From Faecalibacterium longum CLA-AA-H243 (GTDB lineage Bacteria; Bacillota; Clostridia; Oscillospirales; Ruminococcaceae), in contig NZ_JAJEQG010000025.1 in NCBI RefSeq assembly GCF_020687245.1, forward strand, positions 1 to 34,361: a stretch of 34,361 bases of DNA. Direction: 5' to 3'. The translations under genes and the position numbers were made by a program. Shown here piece after piece: positions 6,373 through 34,361 of this stretch; the first letter of the stretch is position 1; each line of letters begins with the position of its first letter. Under the pieces are notes generated by a model. That model ran no database searches. It was not told where the DNA came from and saw only the letters and a list, made by a program, of their open reading frames with translations.

Positions 6373-8102
6373 GTGAACCGAAGCTGAACATCAAAGAGGA
6401 AACGTCCGCAAAAAAGACCCGTTCTCCCCCGAAGAAAACCAAGGTAGAGCAGACGGTGCCCAAAACGAAAAAGCTGAAAACCGATGCAGATAAAGCTGCG
6501 GAAAAGGCACAGCATCTGCGGTTTGGCAAGGCGGAACTGACCCCGGACGAACTGAGCCGGTTGAGCAAGGCGCAGAAACGAGAAATGTACGCAGCCCATG
6601 CTGCCCGGTCTGCGGTGCATCGGGAGGTTGACCAGTACGAGGACGATAATGTGGGCACGCAGGCTTTAAGCGAGGGCGAAAAGGCAGCAGGAAATGTCCG
6701 GGATATTTCCAAGAGCATCTATGCCCGGAAGCTGAAAAAGAAAGCCAAGATGCAGGGCAAGAAGGGTGCCAAAACCGCAAGATCTTCTGCACAGAAGCCG
6801 ACTTCGGCACAAGATGCAGGCGCATTCGGCACCGGTGAAGGCGGCTCCAACTGGCTTTCCCGCTGGAAACAGCGGCAAGAAATCCACAAAAACTACTATG
6901 CCGCCGCACGGTCGGGCACGGCGGCGCAGACCGCAGGCGGCAAAGCGGCATCCAACGGTGCATCTGCTGCCCGGTCCGGCGTGGAACAAACCGTAGAAAA
7001 AGGTAAAACCGCCGTCAGCACTGCCGTGAAAGGGCTGGCGAATGCCACCAAGAGCAACGCACACGTTCTGGTGATCGTGGGCGTTTTTCTTTTGCTCATC
7101 CTCATGGTCATGTCTGGCTTTTCCTCCTGTGGCATCTTATTTGGTAGCGGCACACAGGTGTCCGGGCAGACCATGTACTCTGCCGAGGACAGAGACATCC
7201 GGGGCGCAGAACAGGACTACAAGAAGCTGGAAAAGGAACTGGATAAAAAAATCAAACGCACCCCTACCAACCACCCCGGCTACAATGAGTACCAGTATCA
7301 CCTTGATTCCATCGAGCATGACCCGTGGCAGCTGACCTCGTTCCTGACCACCTTGTATGACGATTACACCCGGTCGGAGGTGCAGGGCAAGCTGAAGGAG
7401 ACCTTCAAAAAGCAGTACAAGCTGACCACATGGGTAGAGGTGCAGATACGGTATAAGACCGTCTGGGTCATCAGCCCGGCAGGAATCCCGGTTCCCACGC
7501 AGGTGCCCTACGAGTACAAAATCTTCCACACCAAATTGGTGAACAAAGGACTGGAAGTCGTTATCCGGGAAGAATTGAATGCCGACCAATGGAAACGGTA
7601 CGAGATCTTTCAGGACACACTGGGTGGTCGGCCTTATCTATTTAACGGCGGTCTGCCGCCCGGTGGTTCCGATGGCTCCGGCACACCGGGCATCGACTAT
7701 CAGGTTCCGGCAGAAGCCCTGACCGACAGCGAGTTTGCCGCCATCTACAAGGAAGCCCAAAAGTATGTGGGCACACCCTATGTGTGGGGCGGCTCCACCC
7801 CGGAAACCGGCTTTGACTGCTCCGGCTATGTCTGCTGGGTGTATAACCAGAACGGATATAACGTGGGCAGAACGACCGCCAACGGTCTGTGGAACAAGAG
7901 CCAGCACATCAGCGAAGCCGAAGCAAAGCCCGGAGATCTGGTCTTTTTCAAAGGAACCTACGACACCCCCGGCATGAGCCATACCGGGATTTATCTGGGC
8001 AATGGCATGATGGTCAGTGCCGGAGACCCCATCAAGTACGCAAACATTCACTCGTCCTACTGGGAGAAGCATCTCGCCGGGTTCGGACGACTTTCAAAAT
8101 GA
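6369..8102 (+). CDS. CD1108-type NlpC/P60 cell-wall hydrolase of the transfer system
   Basis: Membrane-anchored peptidoglycan hydrolase that opens the cell wall for the conjugation channel (VirB1-like role). The 577-residue protein has a long Lys/Ala-rich cytoplasmic N-terminus (about residues 1-225), one transmembrane helix (about 229-250), an extracytoplasmic linker region and a C-terminal NlpC/P60 domain from about residue 455. The catalytic cysteine lies in FDCSGYV (near residue 482) and the histidine in SHTGIYLG (near 537). The start overlaps the VirB4 stop (ATGA). Family knowledge: CD1108 proteins of CTn elements have this bipartite plan; cleavage specificity cannot be read from sequence. 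Confidence 0.9.
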   Translation: MSEPKLNIKEETSAKKTRSPPKKTKVEQTVPKTKKLKTDADKAAEKAQHLRFGKAELTPDELSRLSKAQKREMYAAHAARSAVHREVDQYEDDNVGTQALSEGEKAAGNVRDISKSIYARKLKKKAKMQGKKGAKTARSSAQKPTSAQDAGAFGTGEGGSNWLSRWKQRQEIHKNYYAAARSGTAAQTAGGKAASNGASAARSGVEQTVEKGKTAVSTAVKGLANATKSNAHVLVIVGVFLLLILMVMSGFSSCGILFGSGTQVSGQTMYSAEDRDIRGAEQDYKKLEKELDKKIKRTPTNHPGYNEYQYHLDSIEHDPWQLTSFLTTLYDDYTRSEVQGKLKETFKKQYKLTTWVEVQIRYKTVWVISPAGIPVPTQVPYEYKIFHTKLVNKGLEVVIREELNADQWKRYEIFQDTLGGRPYLFNGGLPPGGSDGSGTPGIDYQVPAEALTDSEFAAIYKEAQKYVGTPYVWGGSTPETGFDCSGYVCWVYNQNGYNVGRTTANGLWNKSQHISEAEAKPGDLVFFKGTYDTPGMSHTGIYLGNGMMVSAGDPIKYANIHSSYWEKHLAGFGRLSK

Positions 8103-23585: not shown

Positions 23586-24971
23586 ATGGCCGCAACACGT
23601 TTGATTGCGCTGCACAAAAACAGGGGCAAGTCGGTTGCGGCCTGCCTGAAAAGCCGCACGGACTACGCGAAGAATCCTGACAAAACGAACAAGGGAGAAC
23701 TGGTCAGCAGCTATGAGTGCAGCCCCTTGACCGCAGACGAAGAATTTATGCTTTCCAAGCGGCAGTATGAATTTGTCACTGGGCGCATACAAAAAAATGA
23801 TGTGATCGCCTATCAAATTCGACAGTCTTTCAAGCCCGGTGAGATTACCGCCGAGGAAGCCAACAAGGTGGGCTATGAACTTGCCATGCGGTTTACCAAG
23901 GGCAAATACGCTTTTATCGTTGCCACCCACACAGACCGGGAACACATCCACAATCACATTATCTACAACTCCACTGCGCTGGACAGCACCCGAAAATTTC
24001 GGGATTTTTTATTATCCGGGCTGGCCGTGCAGCGGTTGAGCGATTTGATTTGTCTGGAACATCAGCTGTCTGTTATTGAAATCAAGCCGTACCGAGAGCG
24101 GCAGAAGCGCACCCTTTATCCACCCAGAGAAAGTAATCGTGATAAGCTGTGTGCCGTAATCGACAACATCCTGCTGAACGAGAGGCCCGCAAATTTCGAG
24201 GGCTTTCTTCAGAAGCTGGAACAGCAGGGCTACGAAATCAAACGGGGAAAGTACACTTCGGTCAAAGGAACACGGCAGAAACGCTTTATCCGTTTTCGGA
24301 CACTGGGCGCGGGATACAGTGAAGATGAAATCAAGGCGGTCATTGCCGGAGAATCCGAACACCGCCCGTATCAGAAGCAGCCACCGAAAGAGCAGCCGTT
24401 CCACCTGTTGGTGGACATTCAGGCAAAACTCTCCGAGGGCAAAAGCGAAGGCTATGCACGGTGGGCTAAACGCTACAATTTGAAAGAGATGTCCAAGACC
24501 CTGATTTTTTTGCAGGAAAATAAAATCGGCAGCATTGAGGAGATGCAGGAGCGTGTGGATGCTGCTACTGCTCACTATCACGAACTGGGCGATTCCATTA
24601 AAGATTCTGAAAATCGACTGGCAGAAATTGCGGTGCTGAAAGCACACATCATCAACTACGCCAAGACGCGACCAGTCTATGATGCCTACCGAAAGACCGG
24701 ATACAGCAAGCACTTTCTGGAAGGTCATCGTGCAGAGATCACACTGCACAAGGCAGCGAAAGCGGCATTCGATGAAGCTAACCTGAAAAAGCTCCCCAAG
24801 GTGAAAGAACTGGATACGGAATATTCCAAGCTGCTGACGGAAAAGAAAGCACTCTACCCGGACTATCGTAAAGCGAAAGAAGAAATGCAGGAGCTTCTTC
24901 GTGCAAAGAGAAACGTAGAACTGTTCTTTGCAGAGGAAAAGAGCAGCACCGAAAAAACGAAGTCCCGATAA
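23586..24971 (+). CDS. mobA: MobA-type relaxase (MOB-P like)
   Basis: A 461-residue relaxase that nicks oriT and pilots the strand through the channel. The Relaxase/mobilisation nuclease domain occupies about the first 250 residues: a conserved tyrosine candidate in RTDYAKNPDK (near residue 27) and the metal-binding histidine motif HTDREHIHNHIIYN (about residues 115-128). The C-terminal 200 residues are mostly coiled coil (KEMSKTLIFLQENKIGSIEE onward). ATG 23586 is preceded by AAAGGGGGC. It is followed by a strong terminator and then a region of inverted repeats that could be oriT. Complete in length. Confidence 0.9.
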   Translation: MAATRLIALHKNRGKSVAACLKSRTDYAKNPDKTNKGELVSSYECSPLTADEEFMLSKRQYEFVTGRIQKNDVIAYQIRQSFKPGEITAEEANKVGYELAMRFTKGKYAFIVATHTDREHIHNHIIYNSTALDSTRKFRDFLLSGLAVQRLSDLICLEHQLSVIEIKPYRERQKRTLYPPRESNRDKLCAVIDNILLNERPANFEGFLQKLEQQGYEIKRGKYTSVKGTRQKRFIRFRTLGAGYSEDEIKAVIAGESEHRPYQKQPPKEQPFHLLVDIQAKLSEGKSEGYARWAKRYNLKEMSKTLIFLQENKIGSIEEMQERVDAATAHYHELGDSIKDSENRLAEIAVLKAHIINYAKTRPVYDAYRKTGYSKHFLEGHRAEITLHKAAKAAFDEANLKKLPKVKELDTEYSKLLTEKKALYPDYRKAKEEMQELLRAKRNVELFFAEEKSSTEKTKSR

Positions 24972-24975
24972 ACGA

Positions 24976-25025
24976 AGATAGCCTAGGACCCTTCCCTCAT
25001 GGAAGAGCCCTAGGCTATCTTTTTT
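24976..25025 (+). terminator. Strong intrinsic terminator after mobA
   Basis: Twelve-pair perfect stem AGATAGCCTAGG/CCTAGGCTATCT with an inner loop that can itself pair (CTTCC/GGAAG), followed by a run of T. It ends the backbone transcription unit just before the cargo. Confidence 0.93.
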
Positions 25026-25058
25026 GTTATAAAAGTGTTTGGAACAAACGCGCAGCCT

Positions 25059-25164
25059 GCATCGCACGATGCGGAACGATAGGGGATTGGGCACAGCCCA
25101 ACAAGCATTTTGAATTTGGATTTGAAAAATCTGATTCAAAAATCGCGAGTTGGTACCAGCTCGC
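25059..25164. other. Cluster of inverted repeats, candidate oriT
   Basis: Four inverted repeats in about 105 bases directly after the relaxase: GCATCG/CGATGC (25059-25072), TTGGGC/GCCCAA around ACA (about 25087-25101), an AT-rich two-tier hairpin with outer arms TTTTGAAT/ATTCAAAA and inner GATTT/AAATC (25108-25141), and GCGAG-TGGTACCA-CTCGC (25145-25164, two mismatches). Dense symmetric repeats beside a relaxase gene are typical of transfer origins. The nic site cannot be read from sequence. Confidence 0.45.
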
Positions 25165-25187
25165 CCTGCTTGCCACCTCGTTTTCCT

Positions 25188-26804
25188 CTAGTTGCCTCGA
25201 AGATCGGAAATATCGATTACCTCATCACATTGTTCCAATACCTTCTGATCATGTGAAACCAATAAAATGATCGCCTGCATTTTCCTTTGTTTGAGCAGCG
25301 TCATCAGCTTTTCAATGCTATCTTTGTCAAGAGCAGAAGTCGGCTCATCCAACAGGATCAAAAAGCTTTCTTTACTTAATGCTCTTACAATTGACAGCTT
25401 TTGTTTTTCTCCCCCTGAAAGATTGTTGCCGTTTTCATTGATGTCTTTTGTCAGAAGATCGTCTATTTCCAGCATTTCTATGAGCATTTTTTGTGTCTCT
25501 GCGACAGATTGGCTTTGCTCAATTCCAAAATTCAAAAATGCCTTGACCGACATATTCAACATGACTGGAGTTTGTTCAACATAGGAAATTTTCTGCCGCC
25601 GGAGCAATGGCATATTGAGCCGATCGATCGCAATTCCGTTATAGGAAACGATTCCAGACGTTTCTCCCGAAAAAAGACCGATAAGGGCGTTCAAAAAAGT
25701 TGTCTTGCCAGTTCCATTCTGGCCGTACAGACCATAAATTCTTCCTCGATAAAATGTAATGCTGCAATGATCCAAGAGCATATGGCTTCCATGCCGGAGA
25801 GAAAAGTCTTTGCATTCAACTTTTTGAATCGAATCGATCCCCTGTTCCCCTTTTTCCTCGTCGGGTGATTTCAAAATCTTTTCAATACGTTGAAAAGATA
25901 TTTTGGCATCCTGATAACTTCCAGCCAATCCAATAAAGTATGAAATTGAGCTGATAATCATATTGAAATACGTGTTTATTATGGAAAAGAAACCAACACT
26001 AAGACTACCTGTACTTACTTTGTAGCCGCCAATCCCGACAATGCACACATAAATCAATAAAACTACAAATTGATTTAAATTTGTAAATACGTAGCTTACT
26101 TTGATTGCATGTATCGATGATCCCATCATTTTATCAAAAGCTTCTTGAAATCGACTTTTCATCTCAATATTCAAGGTGTTTCTTTTAATATATTCAAACT
26201 TATTAATCTGTTCTGAACAGCGTGAAAAAAACTCATTCGATTTTTCTTTTTGTATCCTCCGAGAGATATACAATCCCTTCTGATTCCAGAGAAATGTAAT
26301 AATATATACCGGTATCACAGAGAAAACAATCATACAAAGCAATTTATCTGCTCTTAGCACAATTATAGCACTAATAATAATTGTCGCAATTTGAAAGAAA
26401 AAGCTTAGTATGTTGGCAGAGAAAAAAGTTACAAGTGTAGAAGTATCTTTGTTGATTTGATCTATATAATAAGCATTATCAACATTCGTATACTCGCTGT
26501 ATCTTGAGTTAAAAATTTTTTGATAGATATTACTACTGATACTTGCAACTAGCTTCTGATTGAATTTTGTTGATGCCACCGACATAAAATATCGACAGAA
26601 CATTTGCAGACTTCCAATAACAGCGATAACTACGACAAACCAAATAAGCAATTTAAAAGATATCTCTGTAATCAGAAAATCAATATAAAGTCCAGATATG
26701 TATGGAGTCAATATTCCAATAAGCCATAAAAACAATGTGATTGAAAGATAGGCAATCGCTTCTCGCCTAACCTCCTTGATTTTACTCATTAAAAAGCAAA
26801 ACAT
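25188..26804 (-). CDS. ABC exporter (fused membrane and ATPase domains) of the RiPP cluster
   Basis: A 538-residue half-transporter with an N-terminal membrane domain (about six helices, residues 15-300) and a C-terminal nucleotide-binding domain: Walker A GQNGTGKTT near residue 361, signature LSGGEKQKLS near 464, Walker B FLILLDEPTSALD near 482 and the H-loop LLVSHDQ near 516. There is no N-terminal C39 peptidase domain, so it does not cleave a leader itself. ATG 26804 is chosen because GGTGAT lies five bases upstream; GTG 26816 is an alternative. It is the last gene of the minus-strand operon, downstream of the precursor and an attenuator-like hairpin. Likely exports the modified peptide and/or gives self-protection. 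Confidence 0.85.
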   Translation of the reverse strand: MFCFLMSKIKEVRREAIAYLSITLFLWLIGILTPYISGLYIDFLITEISFKLLIWFVVVIAVIGSLQMFCRYFMSVASTKFNQKLVASISSNIYQKIFNSRYSEYTNVDNAYYIDQINKDTSTLVTFFSANILSFFFQIATIIISAIIVLRADKLLCMIVFSVIPVYIITFLWNQKGLYISRRIQKEKSNEFFSRCSEQINKFEYIKRNTLNIEMKSRFQEAFDKMMGSSIHAIKVSYVFTNLNQFVVLLIYVCIVGIGGYKVSTGSLSVGFFSIINTYFNMIISSISYFIGLAGSYQDAKISFQRIEKILKSPDEEKGEQGIDSIQKVECKDFSLRHGSHMLLDHCSITFYRGRIYGLYGQNGTGKTTFLNALIGLFSGETSGIVSYNGIAIDRLNMPLLRRQKISYVEQTPVMLNMSVKAFLNFGIEQSQSVAETQKMLIEMLEIDDLLTKDINENGNNLSGGEKQKLSIVRALSKESFLILLDEPTSALDKDSIEKLMTLLKQRKMQAIILLVSHDQKVLEQCDEVIDISDLRGN

Positions 26805-26826
26805 TTTTATCACCAATCAATATCAT

Positions 26827-26888
26827 AAAAAGCAAGAGCATTGCAACCCTATGGAGAGAATTCCCAAAAGAATCACAATGCCCTTGCT
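26827..26888 (-). terminator. Terminator/attenuator between precursor and exporter
   Basis: Thirteen-base arms AGCAAGAGCATTG (26831-26843) and CAATGCCCTTGCT (26876-26888) pair with one mismatch. On the minus strand the structure is followed by TTTTTA. It lies after the precursor stop and just before the exporter start, which fits partial termination that gives more precursor than transporter mRNA. Confidence 0.75.
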
Positions 26889-26900
26889 CATATAATTGTG

Positions 26901-27077
26901 TCAGCTCATGGTAAATGTGCCTGAACACTCATACGAATTGTAAATCGGCTCGCACGTAAAATCAAAATCGTAACACTGACTCGGGCAAGGCGGTGTGTAT
27001 CCAATGAGACACAAATCCTCAGGACATTCATCGCATACTCTCGGCATGTTAACAATGGGAGGAATTAAAATGTTCAT
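26901..27077 (-). CDS. Seven-cysteine RiPP precursor peptide (candidate)
   Basis: A 58-residue peptide that short-gene filters miss. ATG 27077 has a near-ideal ribosome site (AAAGGAGAA) and the gene stops with TGA at 26901. The first 14 residues (MNILIPPIVNMPRV) carry no cysteine and may serve as a short leader. The rest has seven cysteines at residues 15, 18, 23, 31, 35, 42 and 51, with many Asp, Glu, Tyr, Pro and Thr between them and a SGTFTMS end. The size, cysteine spacing and place between a SPASM maturase and an exporter support a precursor of a thioether-bridged peptide (sacti- or ranthipeptide type). No double-glycine cleavage site. I do not recognise a named family, and no bridge pattern can be deduced. 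Confidence 0.8.
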   Translation of the reverse strand: MNILIPPIVNMPRVCDECPEDLCLIGYTPPCPSQCYDFDFTCEPIYNSYECSGTFTMS

Positions 27078-27155
27078 ACTGTTCTCCTTTCGATTATAAT
27101 ATTAGAGATAACATCAATATTAGCATGCATCTACCGATGCTATTCTCATCCATCA

Positions 27156-27914
27156 TTAATTTTTAAAATGGACTTCGATTCGACCATTCTCCACGTAGAG
27201 ATTCATTGCGTGTTGATTCGCAGCATCCAAGCGAGATTTCAACATACAAGAACCATTTTTGACCCTAGCCTTTACCGTGTAATCCTCATACCTGCCTACA
27301 ACATCTCCCTTGATCTCTCCGTTCTTCACCGTGCAATCGTATTGAGAGGAAGTTGGATGTTCGAACACTACGGAGCCGTTTTCAATTTCTGATTTTATTC
27401 TGTCAGACTGTGTTTTTGAAAACACCGAAGATCCATTTTTTAACTCAGTGCAGATTTCCTTGGCTGTAATAGAATCCATCTCTACATTGCCTCCGGACGG
27501 ATTTTCTACAACGATCGACTTATACTGACGCTGGGGCAGGACAATCTCCAGGTCATAGGCGCTGTCCACCTCAAACTGCATAATCGTTCCGTTGATGGTG
27601 ACAACTTTCGGGGGTGGGGCTTTTAATTTTTGGACGACCAGGGTGCCGTTCTCGACCTGAATCTCGTACAGTGCTTCCGCTGTCGTATCCGCATAGCGGA
27701 CGCAGACTTCCTCTCCCTCCCCCGGTAGGAAGCGGACCGTCGACCCCTCCTCCTGGACTTGGACAGCGGTCACTTCCTCCAATGTTGAAAACTGTCGCCT
27801 TACCGCCTGTACTTCTGTGGGTTGCTCTGCCAATACATGCATTCCCATCCCCCCCATCACACTAAAGATCCAAACAGTAGAAACCAAGGGAATCAAGAAT
27901 CGCGATACAGGCAT
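27156..27914 (-). CDS. Secreted DUF4097-like beta-repeat protein in the RiPP operon
   Basis: A 252-residue protein with an N-terminal signal peptide or anchor (FLIPLVSTVWIFSVMGGMGMHVLA) followed by short beta-strand repeats of the type KNGSSVF, ENGSVVF, VKNGEIKG and VENGRIEV, spaced about 20 residues apart. This is the look of DUF4097/putative-adhesin beta-solenoids. ATG 27914 has GGGAGGT seven bases upstream. It lies 39 bases after the maturase stop and 78 bases before the precursor start, so it belongs to the operon. Its role is not known: a surface receptor, chaperone or immunity protein is inference. The 5' half is locally G+C-richer than the rest of the cargo. Confidence 0.7.
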   Translation of the reverse strand: MPVSRFLIPLVSTVWIFSVMGGMGMHVLAEQPTEVQAVRRQFSTLEEVTAVQVQEEGSTVRFLPGEGEEVCVRYADTTAEALYEIQVENGTLVVQKLKAPPPKVVTINGTIMQFEVDSAYDLEIVLPQRQYKSIVVENPSGGNVEMDSITAKEICTELKNGSSVFSKTQSDRIKSEIENGSVVFEHPTSSQYDCTVKNGEIKGDVVGRYEDYTVKARVKNGSCMLKSRLDAANQHAMNLYVENGRIEVHFKN

Positions 27915-27953
27915 ATTATTACCTCCCTTTAATATTTGAGCTTTGTTCAGACA

Positions 27954-29246
27954 TTATGTTGTGGAAACAAGGGTTCGTGTATATTCAATAAGGTAGTCCT
28001 TCATGCGAAAATTCAATTGATGACAAATTGTTTTACCTTCCACACGACTATGGGGGCAGCCTCCCATACACACCGGCAACAGCTTGCATTCTTTGCACTT
28101 GGGATCTTCAAAGAAATCGCAAGATGAATATTCGGAAATCAATTTTGTGCTTTGCAGACTATTTTCTCCAAAGTTGATATTCCCGACTGCTTTTGAAATC
28201 TCACCAATATCGTTCCAGCACTTATACAAATATCCTTTTTCATCAACGACCCACCCGTTATAGAAATCAGAAACGCAGTGATTGCCACGAGGTCTCGGAT
28301 ATGTTGTTTGAAACGGAATATTGTTTTTCTTCATAAAATACAAGTTGTATTTTGAATAGAGTTCATTTGTAAGACATTTATCAGCCTCATACGTTCCATT
28401 GTATGGAATAACCAGCCCGAGATAGGGGTGGATGTATTCCAACATGTTTTCTTGCTTCAAATGAGATACTACCTCGTTGGCTAATTCGATATTTTTAATA
28501 TCGACGTTGATTCTTAGATGCACATGTAAGATACCACAGATACTTTTTAGATTATTCATAATAACATCGTATGTTCCCTGTCCATTAACCGTTGGACGCC
28601 GTTCATTATGAATTTCTTTTGGTCCATCCACAGTAACTTGTGCATATCGTACATTATATTTTTTCAGCTTTTCTGCATTTTCCGGCGTCAAAAGATACCC
28701 ATTTGTAATAATTCCCGCTTGGTATTGAAGCTCTTTCTCTTCACACAAAGCTATAATCTGTTCGGACAGGCTTTCGATGACAGACATTCCCAAAAGAGGT
28801 TCTCCACCAAACCAAGTAACATTAATGTTTTTCACTCCATCCAAGTGGGATTTGATAAAGTTCATCAATGCAATTTGTGTTTCCCCATCCATCAGGGAAT
28901 TGCCATAATGCCCTTTCTCAAAACAATAAATGCATCTGAAATTACACGCCATCGTAGGTGCAATAGTTAAGGATAGCAAATTCTTGTTATACCGCCCCTG
29001 CATCATATTGGTTTTGATTAGGAACTTCTCGTCCACTTCTGCTGGAAGCAGATAACCGCATTTCAAAAGATTCTTGAGGAACTCCGCATCCTCAATTTCT
29101 TTTCCTTTCTCCTGAAACCCCTTATACTGCTTATACTGATCTTCATGCACTACTGCCAGTGCACCAGTGCGTGAGTTGTAAAATACAATCTGATCTTTGC
29201 CCAGGTCATCATAAATGAAGTTGTAGGCAGATTCCTTTAGGTGCAT
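27954..29246 (-). CDS. Radical SAM/SPASM peptide maturase
   Basis: A 430-residue radical S-adenosylmethionine enzyme that should install thioether or related crosslinks in the neighbouring Cys-rich peptide. The N-terminal 85 residues carry the ESAYNFI...YNSRTGALAVV pattern common to SPASM peptide maturases. The SAM-binding cluster motif is CNFRCIYC (Cys 101, 105, 108), followed by WFGGEPLL. The C-terminal SPASM domain shows the full spacing, with Cys near 324 and 343 (GYLYKC), then 376, 384, 387 (CKEC), 393, 397 (CMGGC) and 408, so two auxiliary Fe-S clusters are expected. ATG 29246 is chosen over 29267 because CAGGAGGGAT lies seven bases upstream. First gene of the operon. Confidence 0.92.
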   Translation of the reverse strand: MHLKESAYNFIYDDLGKDQIVFYNSRTGALAVVHEDQYKQYKGFQEKGKEIEDAEFLKNLLKCGYLLPAEVDEKFLIKTNMMQGRYNKNLLSLTIAPTMACNFRCIYCFEKGHYGNSLMDGETQIALMNFIKSHLDGVKNINVTWFGGEPLLGMSVIESLSEQIIALCEEKELQYQAGIITNGYLLTPENAEKLKKYNVRYAQVTVDGPKEIHNERRPTVNGQGTYDVIMNNLKSICGILHVHLRINVDIKNIELANEVVSHLKQENMLEYIHPYLGLVIPYNGTYEADKCLTNELYSKYNLYFMKKNNIPFQTTYPRPRGNHCVSDFYNGWVVDEKGYLYKCWNDIGEISKAVGNINFGENSLQSTKLISEYSSCDFFEDPKCKECKLLPVCMGGCPHSRVEGKTICHQLNFRMKDYLIEYTRTLVSTT

Positions 29247-29306
29247 TTTAATCCCTCCTGTGAACAACTTTTGTCTGGCAGCCCTTATTCCAGCGCTTTG
29301 GTCGTC

Positions 29307-29373
29307 TTTATATTAGCACTGTTGAGAGATGAATTTGGCATTTTTCAGTACAAACAGGCTTTTGTGCAGTGAA
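29307..29373 (-). promoter_or_regulatory. RiPP operon promoter with LytTR-type direct repeats
   Basis: Reading the minus strand: TTTTTCACTGCACAAA with ACTG at 29370-29367, a second half-site TTTGTACTGAAAAA with ACTG at 29349-29346, exactly 21 bases later, then a -10 box TATAAA at 29312-29307, 37 bases downstream of the second ACTG. The expected -35 position has no consensus, which fits activation by a bound regulator. The same layout occurs before agrB. Confidence 0.7.
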
Positions 29374-29470
29374 AAAGGGAATTGTGGCAGCTGTGGCCTC
29401 CTCTACACAAAAAAAGATCCCCAAAAACGCGGCTTCTTGCTGCGCCACTTCTGGTAAATCAACGCATATA

Positions 29471-29506
29471 TAACAAAAGTGACCTTGGTTCATTCACCAA
29501 GGTCAC
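29471..29506 (-). terminator. Intrinsic terminator of the XRE repressor gene
   Basis: Perfect ten-pair stem GTGACCTTGG/CCAAGGTCAC with an eight-base loop, overlapping the repressor stop codon. On the minus strand it is followed by TTTTGTTA. It would insulate the RiPP operon from repressor transcription. Confidence 0.85.
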
Positions 29507-29745
29507 TCGATCCCTAAGAGCCACAAAACGGAAACATTCAACGTCTTTGCTATCATCTTTATCTCATAATCAGCAACAAAGCGAGTGCCGATCTCAATTC
29601 TACTGATACAGTCTCTTTCTAATTCCACTCCTTCCAGCTTTAACCGTACAGCCAACGCTTTCTGTGATAGATGCATCTTGATTCGAGCTTCTCGAATGCG
29701 TTCTCCGCTAATATTTTTCTTGCCATTAAAATCATAGATTTTCAT
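29503..29745 (-). CDS. Small XRE-family transcriptional regulator
   Basis: An 80-residue, single-domain Cro/CI-type DNA-binding protein with the helix-turn-helix at about residues 13-65 (ISGERIREARIKMHLSQKAL, then DCISRIEIGTRFVADYEI) and a short end (LLGIE). ATG 29745 follows GAGG at seven bases; GTG 29751 is too close to that site. It sits between the RiPP operon and the agr-like genes and is divergent from the response regulator. Three TGCTAA elements in the divergent promoter region are likely binding sites, so it may repress itself and the agr-like genes. It is complete and ends in its own terminator. Confidence 0.85.
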   Translation of the reverse strand: MKIYDFNGKKNISGERIREARIKMHLSQKALAVRLKLEGVELERDCISRIEIGTRFVADYEIKMIAKTLNVSVLWLLGIE

Positions 29746-29761
29746 AGGCACGCCTCATTTT

Positions 29762-29820
29762 ATGCTAATCATCAGAACTTTTCTTGACTTTAGCATAAAT
29801 CCAAGCTTTAATTGTGCTAA
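29762..29820. promoter_or_regulatory. Likely operators: three TGCTAA elements
   Basis: TATGCTAAT (TGCTAA 29763-29768), inverted TTTAGCATA (29789-29797) and TGTGCTAAAG (TGCTAA 29815-29820) stand 25-27 bases apart in the divergent region between the XRE gene and the response regulator. The first two form an inverted repeat. This is a plausible autoregulatory operator set. Confidence 0.5.
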
Positions 29821-29844
29821 AGATAAGCACATCTTAAAAAATCA

Positions 29845-29874
29845 TTGACAGAGTGAGGCAAATAGCTGTATGGT
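29845..29874 (+). promoter_or_regulatory. Promoter of the agrA-like gene
   Basis: TTGACA (29845-29850), 18-base spacer, TATGGT (29869-29874). Transcription would start near 29881, which excludes the upstream in-frame ATG at 29870 as the main start and supports ATG 29912. Confidence 0.6.
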
Positions 29875-29911
29875 AAAAAGAAAAAGGCAAGTCGAAAGGT
29901 GCGTGTCTCTT

Positions 29912-30628
29912 ATGAGAATTGCTATTCTTGATGATGATCCGCGATTCTCTGATAAATTATATCAGAAAATCAGTATGGAGTTTGCAAAACGAGATTGGGC
30001 TTTAAACTGCCGTATTTTCTCCCATCCGCAAGATCTGCTAAATTCTAATCTTGGCACTCTGCACGCTGTATTTTTGGATGTTGATATGCCAGAGATGAAC
30101 GGCCTGGAGGTTGCCTCTCAAATCCGTCAGCACTACCCCGACCTTATATTGGTATTTATAACGGCCTTTTTGCAATTTGCCCCCAGTGGATATAAAGTTA
30201 GTGCTTTCCGTTATATTTTGAAAGAAAACTATATAGAAGAACTTGACTCCTGTCTGGATGCGATTCAAGACAAACTCTTGGACGGCAAGGAAACGATCGT
30301 GGTTGACTCAAAAAACCTTCAGATTGAAATTCCCTTACGAGACATTTTATACGTTGAGGGTACTCCCTATCGTTGTGTTTTATTACACACAACAGAAGCT
30401 GCTTCCCCTGTATTAGAGTGCCGTGGAAAAATGAACGATTATACCGAACGGTTGTCTGGCAAAGGCTTTATTCGCCTGCAAAAAAGTTTTCTCGTTAATA
30501 TGTCTTATATCAGCAAAATTTCAGGATATACAGCGCAATTACGAAATGGCGAGATCTTAAAGGTCTCTGAAAAAGATTACAAAGCAATCTGTGCAGAGTA
30601 TCTTATGTGGAAAGGCCGCCGCTTATGA
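29912..30628 (+). CDS. agrA: AgrA-like LytTR response regulator
   Basis: A 238-residue response regulator with an N-terminal receiver domain (MRIAILDDDP at the start, phosphoacceptor Asp56 in FLDVDMPEMNG) and a C-terminal LytTR DNA-binding domain (about 135-236) containing ILYVEGTPYRCVLL and GFIRLQKSFLVNMSYISKI. This is the family of AgrA, which binds pairs of short direct repeats one helical face apart. ATG 29912 has AAAGGTG upstream and lies downstream of a promoter. Its stop shares ATGA with the kinase gene. Predicted to activate the agrBD and RiPP promoters through the 21-base repeats; that link is inference. Confidence 0.88.
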   Translation: MRIAILDDDPRFSDKLYQKISMEFAKRDWALNCRIFSHPQDLLNSNLGTLHAVFLDVDMPEMNGLEVASQIRQHYPDLILVFITAFLQFAPSGYKVSAFRYILKENYIEELDSCLDAIQDKLLDGKETIVVDSKNLQIEIPLRDILYVEGTPYRCVLLHTTEAASPVLECRGKMNDYTERLSGKGFIRLQKSFLVNMSYISKISGYTAQLRNGEILKVSEKDYKAICAEYLMWKGRRL

Positions 30629-31950
30629 GTTATGAACTATCCCTCCTCTTAAACTATTTTGTAGTATTTATCGAAGTTTTAGCTTTTATGGTTTTTTCCG
30701 GCGCTTTCTTTCAGAAAAAGATCACCTCAAGTAAATTTATACTCTCTACCGTTGTGTTGACGGGTCTGAACTTTATTTGCCTGGCGATTTCAGAGTCAAA
30801 TGTGCTTTTCAAGCTGGTGCTTCTCACTTGTGTTGACTCGCTTTGGCTCGTTGTAATATACCGTGTTCCTTCGATAAAATGTATCGCAATTTCAGTTTTG
30901 TTTTCATCATTTATAAACATTGCCGACAATTTCTTTTTTATGGCCATTACAATTCTGAAAAATATCACCATGCAAGAATTGTATCGTGACCCATATGGAT
31001 ACTATCTGATTTGTTATATTGCAAAGATCTTTGAAATATTGCTATTTACGATTTTCAAATCAGCTGTAAAACAGCGATTTTATTTTCATCACACCACATG
31101 GAAACACTGGTTGAAAATTTTTGTTTTGCCCATTGTCTCTATGTTTATTTCCGTTTTCTTGTGGCATTTATATTGGATCGTTCCTTTTGCTGCAAGAGAA
31201 ATCTTATTCTGCACAATTGCTTTGTTTATAATGAATGCTTTTGCATTTATTACGCTAAATTATTTGGATCGAGAACAGCAGCTTATCCAAGATAATACAG
31301 TTTTGACACAAAACATCAAATATCAAAACGATATTGTTGAAGCTTGGGCAACCGCCTATAAGAACCAGCGAAAAATGACCCATGATTTTCAAAATCAACT
31401 CAGCATCATTTACGGCTTGGCAGAATGCGAAGCTCCTCATAGCGAATTGTTGCCCTATATTCAAACGGTCATGAAAGATAGTATGAGCACTTCACTGATC
31501 GTTAAGACGGGCAGGCTGGTTGTAGATGTGCTTTTGAGTCAGAAATACCATATCGCGCAGTCAAAAGGGGTTCACTTCTTATTTCAATTGGATGATCTCA
31601 CCTGTTTTGGACTGAAAGATGAGCATCTTGTTGTTGTCCTCTCTAATTTGGTTGACAACGCCATTGAAGCTTGTGAGAAGATCACAGATGATAAAAGTAA
31701 AAAAATCACCCTTGTGATGAAAGTAGAAGAAGAGAGCAGTTTTCTTTATATTGAAAATATGACCGCATTTCCTGTAAAAGTTTTAGACAATCAAGTTGTG
31801 CTGCCTTCCAAACGATCCGAAGAACACGGCTACGGATTGAAGAATGTTGCTGCAATTCTAAATCGTTATAAGGCCGTTTTTGCCGTAGCCTATAAAGAAG
31901 ATTCGAGCCTATTTTGCTTCTCTGCCCAAATTCCTGAAACTCTTTCATAA
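30625..31950 (+). CDS. agrC: AgrC-like GHKL sensor histidine kinase
   Basis: A 441-residue sensor kinase with about six N-terminal transmembrane helices (residues 1-205), a linker coiled coil, the phosphoacceptor His253 in KMTHDFQNQLSIIYGLAE and a C-terminal GHKL ATPase with the N-box NLVDNAIEACEK near residue 345 and the G-box EHGYGLKN near 400. This is the AgrC plan, in which the membrane domain binds the cyclic peptide pheromone. The start overlaps the regulator stop (ATGA at 30625), so the pair is co-translated. Closest alternative is another GHKL kinase of the bacteriocin type, such as ComD or BlpH; the adjacent agrB and agrD favour AgrC. Confidence 0.87.
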   Translation: MSYELSLLLNYFVVFIEVLAFMVFSGAFFQKKITSSKFILSTVVLTGLNFICLAISESNVLFKLVLLTCVDSLWLVVIYRVPSIKCIAISVLFSSFINIADNFFFMAITILKNITMQELYRDPYGYYLICYIAKIFEILLFTIFKSAVKQRFYFHHTTWKHWLKIFVLPIVSMFISVFLWHLYWIVPFAAREILFCTIALFIMNAFAFITLNYLDREQQLIQDNTVLTQNIKYQNDIVEAWATAYKNQRKMTHDFQNQLSIIYGLAECEAPHSELLPYIQTVMKDSMSTSLIVKTGRLVVDVLLSQKYHIAQSKGVHFLFQLDDLTCFGLKDEHLVVVLSNLVDNAIEACEKITDDKSKKITLVMKVEEESSFLYIENMTAFPVKVLDNQVVLPSKRSEEHGYGLKNVAAILNRYKAVFAVAYKEDSSLFCFSAQIPETLS

Positions 31951-31961
31951 GCGTATACCGA

Positions 31962-32028
31962 TTTCACTGCAAAAATAGCCAATCTCACTGCAAAATCTAC
32001 ATATAGTTCTAAAAATGTGTTATATACT
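31962..32028 (+). promoter_or_regulatory. agrBD promoter with LytTR-type direct repeats
   Basis: Two copies of TCACTGCAAAA begin at 31964 and 31985, exactly 21 bases apart, followed 36 bases after the second ACTG by TATACT (32023-32028). The -35 position is not consensus. The arrangement and the core TTTCACTGCA match the RiPP operon promoter at 29307-29373. Confidence 0.72.
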
Positions 32029-32051
32029 GTCCAAAGAGAGGTATAAAACAG

Positions 32052-32654
32052 ATGCTTCATAGCATTTCCCGCCGATTGACCGAATGGTTTTTCCGGCACA
32101 ATTGGGTCGAAGAAAACAATTACACCTGGTGTCTTTATGTAGTTGAAAAAAAACTTCTTCAATTCTGTTTTCTTCTGATCCTGTCGATTTGTTGCATTAT
32201 TTCCAATCAATATTTCAACACGCTTGTTTTTATGGCAACAATGTATTTTTTGCGTCGGCGAATGGGTGGATGGCATGCTCCTTATAATTGGATGTGTATT
32301 CTGCTGACAACAGTAACAACCTTCATTGTTCTTTATATATTCGCCCCTGTTCTGATGCGCATAAATTCGCTCACCATGTGGACACTTGATATTCTATTGA
32401 TTCTAGCTGCATTTAGAACCAACCCTATTTATCCGCCGCAACTACACTTTGAACAAGAAATCATATCTTCAAACCGGAAAAAAAAGAATTTCACACTTGT
32501 CTGTATTACAATCATACAAGTCATTTCTGTCCAGCTTGGGTTCCCTCAGGTACTGATTTTTAGTTTTAATGGCATACTAGTCAGTATACTGCTTATAGTG
32601 GCCGAGAAAATCAAACAGAAGCATGGAGGTTTTTTGTATGAAGCTGTTGAATAA
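32052..32654 (+). CDS. agrB: AgrB-like peptide-processing endopeptidase
   Basis: A 200-residue membrane cysteine endopeptidase that cleaves and cyclises the AgrD pro-peptide. The family signature is clear: RRRMGGWHAPYNWMC with His75 and Cys82, the same seven-residue spacing as the catalytic pair of staphylococcal AgrB. Several hydrophobic helices (about 35-50, 54-66, 84-104, 110-125 and 147-185) follow the usual topology. ATG 32052 has GAGAGG about ten bases upstream, and its 3' end overlaps the agrD start by 17 bases. Complete in length. Confidence 0.92.
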   Translation: MLHSISRRLTEWFFRHNWVEENNYTWCLYVVEKKLLQFCFLLILSICCIISNQYFNTLVFMATMYFLRRRMGGWHAPYNWMCILLTTVTTFIVLYIFAPVLMRINSLTMWTLDILLILAAFRTNPIYPPQLHFEQEIISSNRKKKNFTLVCITIIQVISVQLGFPQVLIFSFNGILVSILLIVAEKIKQKHGGFLYEAVE

Positions 32655-32805
32655 CATCGGAAAAGAAATCCTGAACCGCGCCATTGTTCTCGAGCGATTT
32701 GGCTGGCCTCCTTCTTGCATGGGAGGCGTATATCAGCCCGAGCGTCCCGTTTGTAACTATCCCCAGCCGGATCATGAAACTCCTCCCAAAGAACCCAACA
32801 AGTAA
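32638..32805 (+). CDS. agrD: AgrD-like cyclic thiolactone pro-peptide
   Basis: A 55-residue pro-peptide with an amphipathic N-terminal helix (MKLLNNIGKEILNRAIVLER), a short pheromone core and a charged C-terminal tail. The core SCMGGVYQPERP lines up with ACLWFTHQPEEP of the Clostridium perfringens type, which predicts a five-residue thiolactone ring CMGGV (Cys27-Val31) with an uncertain N-terminal extension. ATG 32638 follows GGAGG at eight bases and overlaps agrB. The tail is unusually long and Pro-rich and contains a second Cys39, which is not typical. Pheromone identity is a prediction. Confidence 0.85.
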   Translation: MKLLNNIGKEILNRAIVLERFGWPPSCMGGVYQPERPVCNYPQPDHETPPKEPNK

Positions 32806-32820
32806 AATAATGGACACAAA

Positions 32821-32886
32821 GACCTCAAACGAAGCTTCCCATATCCCTATTTGGAATATACAGAAGAGTCGTTTGCGGTCTTTTTT
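32821..32886 (+). terminator. Terminator of the agr-like operon
   Basis: Twelve-base arms GACCTCAAACGA (32821-32832) and TCGTTTGCGGTC (32869-32880) pair with one mismatch around a partly paired 36-base loop, followed by six T. It closes the agrBD transcript. Confidence 0.85.
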
Positions 32887-32930
32887 ATTATTTTCACCGC
32901 AGATCTTTCTCACATGAAAAGGAGGTCCTT

Positions 32931-33122
32931 ATGCAGAACGATTTTCGATCCGAGCTGTACATTTCTACCTGCCCCCGATGCGGCACCCGCCTCATGTGTG
33001 GAAAGATCATCGTCACCGGTTTGCAAAAATGTTCCAAGTGCAACCGGCACTGGGTCATCCAGATGGAAAAGAACAAAATATCTGTCACACGGGCATCCCT
33101 CTATTTTGAAGAGTTTGCCTGA
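32931..33122 (+). CDS. Small zinc-ribbon protein, unknown
   Basis: A 63-residue protein with two CxxC pairs (CPRCG at residues 14-18 and CSKC at about 34-37) and a basic C-terminal half, so one zinc ribbon is likely. The ATG at 32931 follows AAAAGGAGGT, a very strong ribosome site. It lies just after the agr terminator, where base composition returns toward that of the backbone, so it may belong to the element rather than to the cargo. I recognise no specific family; a small DNA- or RNA-binding regulator is inference. Confidence 0.62.
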   Translation: MQNDFRSELYISTCPRCGTRLMCGKIIVTGLQKCSKCNRHWVIQMEKNKISVTRASLYFEEFA

Positions 33123-33250
33123 GACCCATTCAAACTGAATATTGCATGAGACATATTGTATCTGCGTCGGATTGGGTTTAGCCCTCAGGGACGGAATTCA
33201 GGAGTCAAGAGTTTGTCAGATAGGACTGGACCGGCTATAGGCCGGACGAG

Positions 33251-33307
33251 ACCGGCAGACGGAAGCGATTTCTTTAGAGAAATTGCGGCTGTCTGCCGGT
33301 CTTTTTT
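33251..33307 (+). terminator. Strong two-tier intrinsic terminator
   Basis: Outer stem ACCGGCAGAC/GTCTGCCGGT (ten pairs) encloses an inner stem GCGATTTCT/AGAAATTGC with loop TTAG; a run of six T follows. Very stable; probably ends the zinc-ribbon transcript. Confidence 0.92.
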
Positions 33308-33394
33308 GCGTTTCGGGATCTGCTTCCGTCGCCCCTTTGGGAGTGACGTATGCGCCGAGGCTGGGAGACGTACATCGCCCGATATCCCTGAGCG

Positions 33395-33431
33395 CCAGAT
33401 TTTGCACGTTCATTCACACGTCAAGATCTGG
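33395..33431 (+). promoter_or_regulatory. Hairpin abutting the ribosome site of the XRE gene
   Basis: CCAGATTTTG-ACGT pairs with ACGTCAAGATCTGG (one bulge, one mismatch), and its last two bases are part of the GGAGGG ribosome site before ATG 33443. It could be an operator or limit translation. Confidence 0.4.
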
Positions 33432-33442
33432 AGGGTAAACCC

Positions 33443-33682
33443 ATGCGCTTTAATCCTGTGGAATGCGGAAAGAGAATGAAAGCTTTGCGCGAAAGCAAAA
33501 ACCTCACACAAATGCAGCTTGCCGAGCAGCTCAATATCAGCCTAAATCATGTAAAAGCGCTGGAGCACGCCAGAAGGCTGTTTTCTATTGATCTTGTTAA
33601 CAGACGTATTTGGTTGCAGTGTAAAGAGCGTATCGAAGATAACGAGAGCCACGCTTTTCCATGTGTGCATAGCAGTTTGTGA
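33443..33682 (+). pseudogene. XRE-family regulator, 3' end lost at the IS110 junction
   Basis: The first 52 codons encode a normal Cro/CI helix-turn-helix (CGKRMKALRESKNLTQMQLA, then EQLNISLNHVKALEHARRLF and SIDLV). From about 33598 the reading frame continues into antisense IS110 sequence (NRRIWLQCKERIEDN onward), so the last part of the 79-residue frame is chimeric. The usual final helices of such a repressor (a stretch like IxLxxxFxVSLDYLL) are missing. ATG 33443 follows GGAGGG. It is probably non-functional. It may be the backbone's own regulator, cut by a rearrangement. Confidence 0.75.
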
Positions 33683-34361
33683 GTTTTCCTGACTGGTATG
33701 TGGACGGAGAACATCCGGCATAAGCCAAAACTTTATCAGGAGAGTTGAAATTTGAAAAATCCCCCACCTCTGCAAGAATCATCGCAGCAGAATAAAATCC
33801 CATTCCGGGAATCGAAAGGATTGGCGGTTTCAATTCATCCATGATTTTCCGAATGGCATCTTCTATTTCGTTGATTTCGGAGGTAAGTTCTTGAATGAGC
33901 TTAATGGTGTGCTTTAATTCCAAAGACTTAGCAGGCATAACAGAACCAATGGATGTTCTGGCTGCATCTCGGATATGAGTAGCTCGGTCTTTTCGGTAAT
34001 GGCCTCTGGATGTTGTCACGAGGATGTTAGCCAATCTGGTCAGATGAGCTTCTGAAATCTGCTTTGCACCGGGATACTCCCTGAGAAGTGCGTAGATTGA
34101 AGTGCCGTGGATAGACGAAACAAGCTGTTCTAATTCTGGAAACAGGATCGTAACCAATCTGGACACCGACTGCTTTAGTTTGGCGCGTTCCTGAACTTTA
34201 TCAAATCGGTATCTCGTGAGTGACTTTAGTTCTTCGTTGTGATATGCTGTATCTGTGTAGGACTTAAGGTCTACATCGGACAATAGCATAGTTGCAATCG
34301 TTTTTGCATCCACACGATCGGTTTTAGTTTTGCGAAGACTGAGGCTCTTTCGATACAGGTT
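33597..34361 (-). CDS. IS110-family transposase, partial at both ends
   Basis: RuvC-like DEDD transposase/recombinase of the IS110 family. The frame is open to the right window edge and starts there with LRKTKTDRVDA, which contains the two late acidic residues of the DEDD core. The middle is coiled, and the second domain (Transposase_20) is visible as IPGMGFYSAAMILAEVGDFS followed by YAGCSPSTYQSGK, with the serine expected to act in strand exchange. The protein ends at YALYTATKYVC, where family members normally continue for about 60-90 residues, so the C-terminus is cut at the junction with the XRE gene. It is therefore 5' partial by window and 3' truncated by rearrangement, and probably inactive. 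Confidence 0.85.
   Translation of the reverse strand, partial: NLYRKSLSLRKTKTDRVDAKTIATMLLSDVDLKSYTDTAYHNEELKSLTRYRFDKVQERAKLKQSVSRLVTILFPELEQLVSSIHGTSIYALLREYPGAKQISEAHLTRLANILVTTSRGHYRKDRATHIRDAARTSIGSVMPAKSLELKHTIKLIQELTSEINEIEDAIRKIMDELKPPILSIPGMGFYSAAMILAEVGDFSNFNSPDKVLAYAGCSPSTYQSGKLTNCYAHMEKRGSRYLRYALYTATKYVC

Follow-up and report, generated by a model that had tools for sequence, protein, structure and literature searches.

Ribosomally synthesised and post-translationally modified peptides (RiPPs) made by radical S-adenosylmethionine (radical SAM) enzymes have already been placed under peptide quorum-sensing circuits in streptococci, where tryglysin and others are controlled by the cytoplasmic regulator Rgg and the linear peptide SHP (PMC8092268, PMC13361665). 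Also published is a RiPP-synthetase-like gene that adjoins an agr system and is controlled by it, encoding the LanM-like protein CA_C0082 of Clostridium acetobutylicum, which is without the catalytic residues and serves granulose formation; some of its homologues sit with agr in lanthipeptide clusters (PMC10301443). Ranthipeptide clusters occur in Faecalibacterium (PMC12802319). We analysed a stretch of 34,361 nucleotides from Faecalibacterium longum CLA-AA-H243 (the window), an entire contig of the 2.96-Mb genome, in which the block at 25188-32886 carries an exporter, a seven-cysteine precursor, a secreted DUF4097 protein and a SPASM maturase opposite a complete agr system.

Unlike the streptococcal RiPPs, those of this locus would answer to an agr two-component system and AgrD on a conjugative element; unlike CA_C0082, whose system has no radical SAM enzyme, the modifying protein here is of that kind. 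A first-pass annotation of the window had called an agr-type circuit joined to a SPASM RiPP on a conjugative element undescribed as far as it knew. We likewise found no paper on agr-controlled radical SAM RiPPs on a conjugative element, in a search with limited coverage of subscription papers, and the novelty is to be read with CA_C0082 as a precedent. A term search of PMC13361665 found no mention of agr or conjugative, the combination of AgrD, radical SAM and conjugative returned one C. difficile genome paper, and no paper was found for “Clo7bot”.

We consider it probable that the agr system is a module having the adjacent Cys-rich radical SAM RiPP operon as its output, and that both are cargo of a Tn1549-like conjugative element. 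According to the proposed mechanism, AgrB and AgrD would release a small thiolactone with the predicted core CMGGV, AgrC would sense it, and AgrA would bind half-site pairs with a 21-bp offset in two places, ahead of agrB for autoinduction and ahead of the maturase operon for output. The 58-aa precursor would then be modified by the maturase and the product exported by the ABC protein; the DUF4097 protein may protect the producer, and the XRE protein may gate agrAC.

The peptide operon and the agr system

All of the genes named by the first-pass annotation were recovered by model searches and reading, and the block is AT-rich as it had stated, with about 33-45% GC against mostly 52-59% elsewhere and further dips at 9-11 kb and 14-15.5 kb. 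It had placed the block inside a Tn1549-like conjugative element, and the VirD4, TrbL, VirB4-like and relaxase backbone genes of such an element are all present, VirD4 being a CD1115-family match. The XRE regulator was absent from its gene list. The minus strand carries the maturase, the DUF4097 protein, the precursor and the exporter, the plus strand carries agrA, agrC, agrB and agrD, and the XRE gene lies between them (Table 1).

The Clo7bot maturases (TIGR04334) are the nearest family of the maturase, though the score of 292 bits is far under the curated cut-off of that model (600), which leaves the protein outside it by this measure; TIGR04463 gives 268 bits (cut-off 525) and PapB 133 bits (cut-off 340). 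The likeness to Clo7bot systems lies in a full-length match to the best family model and in short Cys-rich precursors with a common leader motif, and the differences lie in the low score, in a precursor that matches no NCBIfam or Pfam model, and in relatives most of which have no agr nearby. In an alignment of 30 sequences, three radical SAM and five SPASM cysteines are invariant and two more are nearly so, and these cysteines, together with the Cys-rich precursor and its leader motif, place the locus among Clo7bot-like Cys-rich RiPPs in the wide sense. The predicted structure of the maturase (predicted local distance difference test, pLDDT, 93; predicted template modelling score 0.90) is closest in Foldseek to 5WHY (E 2.8e-19, 18% identity) and to 8VPO, which is TigE (E 1.7e-18, 16%), and a profile search against solved structures ranks 5WGG first and 8VPO fourth. 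We take 5WGG and 5WHY to be CteB. At 16-19% identity, the chemistry of these closest solved maturases is not transferable to ours. A second, distant maturase (27% identity) adjoining an ABC gene is encoded elsewhere in the same genome (G000:C54, 5377-6591, locus L018).

The leader motif M-x-[YFWIH]-[ILVM]-x-x-P is found in 31 of the 75 same-strand Cys-rich open reading frames (ORFs) adjoining related maturases and in none of the 30 opposite-strand candidates; it is present at 12 of 20 loci, the window (MNILIPP) included. Because the pattern was composed after inspecting the same sequences, it is the opposite-strand control that carries weight. A C39 peptidase domain, which could have accounted for removal of the leader, was not found in the exporter with Pfam.

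Our best guess for the product is a bacteriocin-like effector, which would be exported and kill competitors, and the DUF4097 protein is possibly its immunity or accessory protein (its structure prediction, with a pLDDT of 36, is unusable). We regard as unlikely the alternative that the product, also under agr control, is a signal, a metal-binding or an envelope-active peptide rather than an antimicrobial. Such a role would suit the weak resemblance of the DUF4097 protein to envelope-stress proteins and has a parallel in CA_C0082, which serves granulose formation and not killing (PMC10301443), but agr already owns its signal, and the neighbours found in the same slot of related elements include a WgkB-like system; tryglysin, made by a streptococcal system of that type, inhibits streptococci (PMC8092268). 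As a separate observation, a DUF4097-like protein is encoded divergently from another agrA-agrC pair in the genus (L094 in genome G236, 6022-6792), which ties this family to agr a second time.

AgrB, AgrD, AgrC and AgrA are all present, with paired direct repeats before agrB, and the starts of agrA, agrC and agrD (29912, 30625 and 32638) were refined by reading the sequence. AgrD scores 13.4 bits against TIGR04223, below the cut-off of 19, and was recognised through its position and its relatives. In the AgrD sequences of the window and of the genus genomes G774 and G236, the cores CMGGV, CTSIL and CAGII are each preceded by ERFGWPP(S/T) and followed by YQPERP (in the window ERFGWPPS-CMGGV-YQPERP, the core being a prediction), and the AgrD sequences of G367, G776, G758 and G754 have WPP in common ahead of related cores. 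Between the XRE gene and agrA, at 29745-29850, repeated TTTAGCATAA-like half-sites were seen by eye, with similar ones in G774; they are possible XRE operators.

Promoter repeats of the two operons

Because the XRE gene ends in a 13-pair terminator, the maturase operon needs a promoter of its own, and this promoter and that of agrB each carry a LytTR/AgrA-type direct repeat (Table 1). When the matrix is trained on no agrB promoters but those of G774 and G236, leaving the window out, the agrB promoter of the window scores 33.3 bits and the maturase promoter 22.0 bits, followed by sites of 15.7 and 14.2 bits, which overlap these two, and by one of 12.3 bits. No simulation reached 22.0 bits, neither among 300 of window size, whose maxima averaged 14.1, nor among 20000 of promoter size. 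At four sites the half-sites stand exactly 21 bp apart: in the maturase promoter, and before agrB in the window, in G774 and in G236. The distance from the end of the right half-site to a -10-like hexamer, located by eye, is 28 bp at L093, at L031 and in the maturase promoter, and 28-30 bp in the agrB promoter of the window. The right half-site of the maturase promoter, TTGTACTG, is degenerate; G772 has it too, in a 31.0-bit site that precedes a lipoprotein-like gene in the neighbourhood of agrA-agrC.

These repeats give cis support for a wiring from AgrA to the maturase operon, in which AgrA would bind both promoters and induce both operons. The pln bacteriocins of Lactobacillus plantarum are unmodified peptides. 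Their promoters likewise have 9-bp repeats with a 12-bp spacer, just upstream of the -35 and read by the same kind of regulator (PlnC/PlnD), which equals the 21-bp spacing seen here, and the repeat sequence differs (PMC2714321). The AgrA of S. aureus likewise binds direct repeats upstream of its own promoters (PMC4227749).

A second repeat subtype was tested with leave-one-out matrices over five loci, and the agrB promoter ranks first in all five. At the agr loci L130 and L249, the second site (0/60 simulations) precedes a secreted-protein-like ORF, which at L249 is followed by a short precursor-like ORF, a maturase and an exporter; no second site was found with this matrix at L245. Further sites were noted in passing. 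Two more strong AgrA-type repeats lie in G774 (L136, 12783 and 14222), one ahead of a secreted-protein-like ORF and one in the upstream region of a GAF/BTAD regulator. In G772, where agrA and agrC were seen and agrB and agrD were not, the strong site stands before the lipoprotein-like gene (L092, G772:C19, 5792-7869 and 9417), a possible listener circuit.

The circuit sits on a conjugative element and supplies a density signal, so that agr might chiefly control conjugative transfer, the peptide being incidental. We hold this to be very improbable: in the matrix scan of the window, no site above the simulated maximum lies in front of the transfer genes, and among 12 cargo slots that we compared, agr genes occur in only three (L126, L130 and L136), beyond a weak agrA match in L128. 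Since no such site lies before the transfer genes and AgrD is already a signal, the suggestion of the first-pass annotation that the peptide could be a signal rising with donor density gains no specific support. The wiring of agr to the RiPP that it also proposed gains support from the shared promoter repeats and from co-occurrence: it would have been undermined had the maturase and agr never co-occurred, and agr stands beside related maturases in G774 and in L164, a locus outside the genus, and beside a WgkB-like one in G367.

Recurrence of the pairing among relatives

In our sample of 31 genomes of the genus, agrC relatives are present in 29 at E 1e-8, with close full-length ones in G772 (67%), G236 (50%, and a second of 32%) and G774 (42%), and AgrB gives 19 matches across 14 genomes. 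Of the 19 AgrB genes, four (that of the window among them) have a TIGR04085 match no more than 10 kb away, where 0.34 would be expected (Poisson p 4e-4, an indicative value, as the loci are not independent); without the window the count is 3 of 18. The slot of G774 holds an XRE gene, agr, a maturase, two Cys-rich ORFs and an exporter, and its agr is homologous to that of the window (agrC E 1.3e-111, agrB 7.7e-26). The same slot of G367 (L126, 12534-17500) holds another agr, a WgkB-like maturase (294 bits, cut-off 650), a PqqD-like protein, a short ORF containing WGK and two ABC exporters, and that of G776 holds agr with a permease and ABC genes and no maturase nearby. None of the remaining compared slots has a complete agr. 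Cargo was named by eye except where model matches exist. An ORF of L130 (12575-12916) that looked lactococcin-972-like matched no NCBIfam or Pfam model and was not used.

At E 1e-60, maturase relatives are present in 8 of 396 family genomes and 2 of 394 order genomes, its own genome counted in both, and exact maturase peptide patterns found no relative in genome and viral contig collections. Among the best 80 of 387 loci in named genomes, the best match (40%) is L164, from a Defluviitaleaceae metagenome-assembled genome, with agr, two maturases, an exporter and an AgrD-like ORF. This last ORF (4243-4404), beside the agr genes and the two maturases, has no cysteine and carries a serine at the would-be ring position (ASWGGIYQPKTP). 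PF04647 matches occur in 9 of the 49 genomes behind 50 of these best 80 loci; that of L164 is on its maturase contig by coordinates, and the contig numbers of the others were not mapped.

Several observations weigh against an agr-controlled peptide operon. A scan of 88 further maturase loci, made up of the best 80 of 387 and of 8 family loci, showed agr at L164 only; it used agrB and agrC models built for the analysis and may have missed some, several loci being short. Because L164 stands alone there, agr control is, on present sequences, not a general property of the maturase family. Within the genus, G236 has a close agr with an XRE gene and no maturase in 19 kb, G758, one of the four AgrB-TIGR04085 pairs, has only a maturase fragment, and G754 has a maturase beside agrB that TIGR04085 missed, with an incomplete agr (no agrA found, short agrC); G758 and G754 were counted as incomplete cases only. 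At the promoters, the right half-site before the maturase is degenerate; a looser spacing (20-22 bp) keeps the same leaders at 39.0 and 21.4 bits, the latter reached in 1 of 60 simulations; and a strict combined repeat pattern run across the own genome found the agrB site only, the matrix test having come afterwards. In G774, where some 100 bp separate agrD from the peptide operon that follows it, the strong sites precede agrB and other ORFs, and none stands immediately ahead of that operon; two strong sites of L244 (0/60) precede ORFs without a Pfam match, not its maturase fragment; and the cargo site of L126 is weak (8/60 simulations). Finally, no leader-removing protease or proven immunity gene was seen, and no immunity family was recognised.

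Part of this would be expected if agr and the RiPP operon were chance neighbours in a cargo hotspot and AgrA did not control the RiPP, since the slot hosts many cargo types, most compared copies have no agr, the right half-site is weak and the maturase family is mostly agr-free. We find that quite improbable given that the maturase promoter is precisely where the second-best site of the window falls, the 21-bp offset included, that agr with a maturase recurs in G774, G367 and L164, and that AgrB lies near TIGR04085 matches more often than expected. Control of the peptide operon by AgrA is the preferred reading.

A tree of 31 maturases, four of them agr-linked, places the window with L164 (93/74) inside a supported set of five and G774 with a Collinsella maturase (98/94). 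A single agr-linked clade was rejected, as three changes are needed and supported branches force three; yet 74 of 500 shuffles come out equally low, and the agr label is hence not clustered on the tree, one row has a very long branch, and one gain with two losses also fits. Re-pairing of agr with maturases seems the simpler reading, because the agr systems of the window and G774 are homologous while their maturases sit in different supported groups.

The conjugative element and the reach of the finding

Its sequence places the block in the cargo slot of a conjugative element. The gene set is Tn1549-like, and in the window it also includes TraG-like and topoisomerase genes beside the VirD4/type IV secretion coupling protein, TrbL and the MobA/VirD2 relaxase. 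The relaxase has near-identical or homologous copies in 20 of the 31 genus genomes, and the slots were compared at 12 relaxase loci picked from a longer list: similarity to the window stops on the left at 25112 in eight, at 25173-25176 in three and earlier in one, and the backbone returns on the right at 33806 in five and near 33854-33860 in three, with no return seen in four (right-border coordinates extended with MT836101). The record MT836101.1, from human faeces in Mexico and filed as “Bacteriophage sp.”, is 99.99% identical to 26087-33599 with one mismatch and continues beyond, so the block is not an assembly accident. The window stops before an integrase, and MT836101 runs on into a recombinase-like ORF recognised by eye.

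Some side observations concern the surroundings. The identity to MT836101 breaks off at 33599, within a small XRE gene that this record keeps uninterrupted, and an IS110-family transposase gene (PF01548, PF02371) lies at 33597-34313, at the contig end. Fourteen human-faecal “Bacteriophage sp.” records (10 listed) match the conjugative backbone at 1-25000, and MT836101 matches the cargo. The plasmid collection gave no DNA match, and Rfam gave none within 24900-34361.

Table 1. Features of the block and its surroundings, with positions in the window.
Feature	Position	Strand	Evidence
Radical SAM/SPASM peptide maturase	27954..29246	-	Radical_SAM PF04055; TIGR04334 292 bits
Secreted DUF4097 protein	27156..27914	-	PF13349 1.1e-7; weak LiaX/LiaG similarity
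58-aa precursor, seven Cys, leader MNILIPP	26901..27077	-	Clear Shine-Dalgarno; common leader motif
ABC exporter	25188..26816	-	PF00664, PF00005
LytTR/AgrA-type direct repeat, maturase operon: TTTCACTGCA + TTGTACTGAA, 21 bp apart	29344..29374	-	22.0 bits, second-best site
XRE regulator, kept beside agrA in G774 and G236	29503..29751	-	HTH_3
Terminator after XRE gene	29477..29508	-	13-pair stem
agrA, LytTR response regulator	29912..30628	+	PF04397, PF00072
agrC, GHKL histidine kinase	30625..31950	+	PF14501
LytTR/AgrA-type direct repeat, agrB promoter: TTTCACTGCA + TCTCACTGCA, 21 bp apart	31962..31992	+	33.3 bits, best site of the window
agrB	32052..32654	+	PF04647 1.1e-16
agrD, predicted signal core CMGGV	32638..32805	+	Position and relatives
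MobA/VirD2-type relaxase, final conserved backbone gene ahead of the slot	23586..24971	+	PF03432 1.1e-31
Cargo slot, part visible in the window	25113..33599	.	Left border 25112 or 25173-25176; backbone back near 33806

We tentatively raise the possibility, in which our confidence falls somewhat short of even, of a family of conjugative elements in gut Clostridia that carry an “agr socket”. In one cargo slot, agr modules would be re-paired with peptide-modifying systems that are unrelated to one another (WgkB-like, and Clo7bot-like of two lineages), 21-bp repeats connecting each of them and the AgrD cores setting the signalling groups. Elements with different cores (CMGGV, CTSIL, CSGWL) would then fall into separate groups, and at high density each group would arm a peptide of its own, the element type defining kin and competitor. 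The presence of similar circuits beside other peptide systems on related elements suggests exchangeable bacterial weapons and a way for a mobile element to police its carriers. The proposed control of the peptide operon by AgrA makes exact predictions, with two promoters, one repeat geometry and one signal core, and 21-bp repeats beside agr on conjugative elements offer a route to more such peptides. If it is true, quorum-controlled radical SAM peptides would extend from the Rgg/SHP systems of streptococci to the thiolactone agr systems of gut anaerobes, on movable elements.

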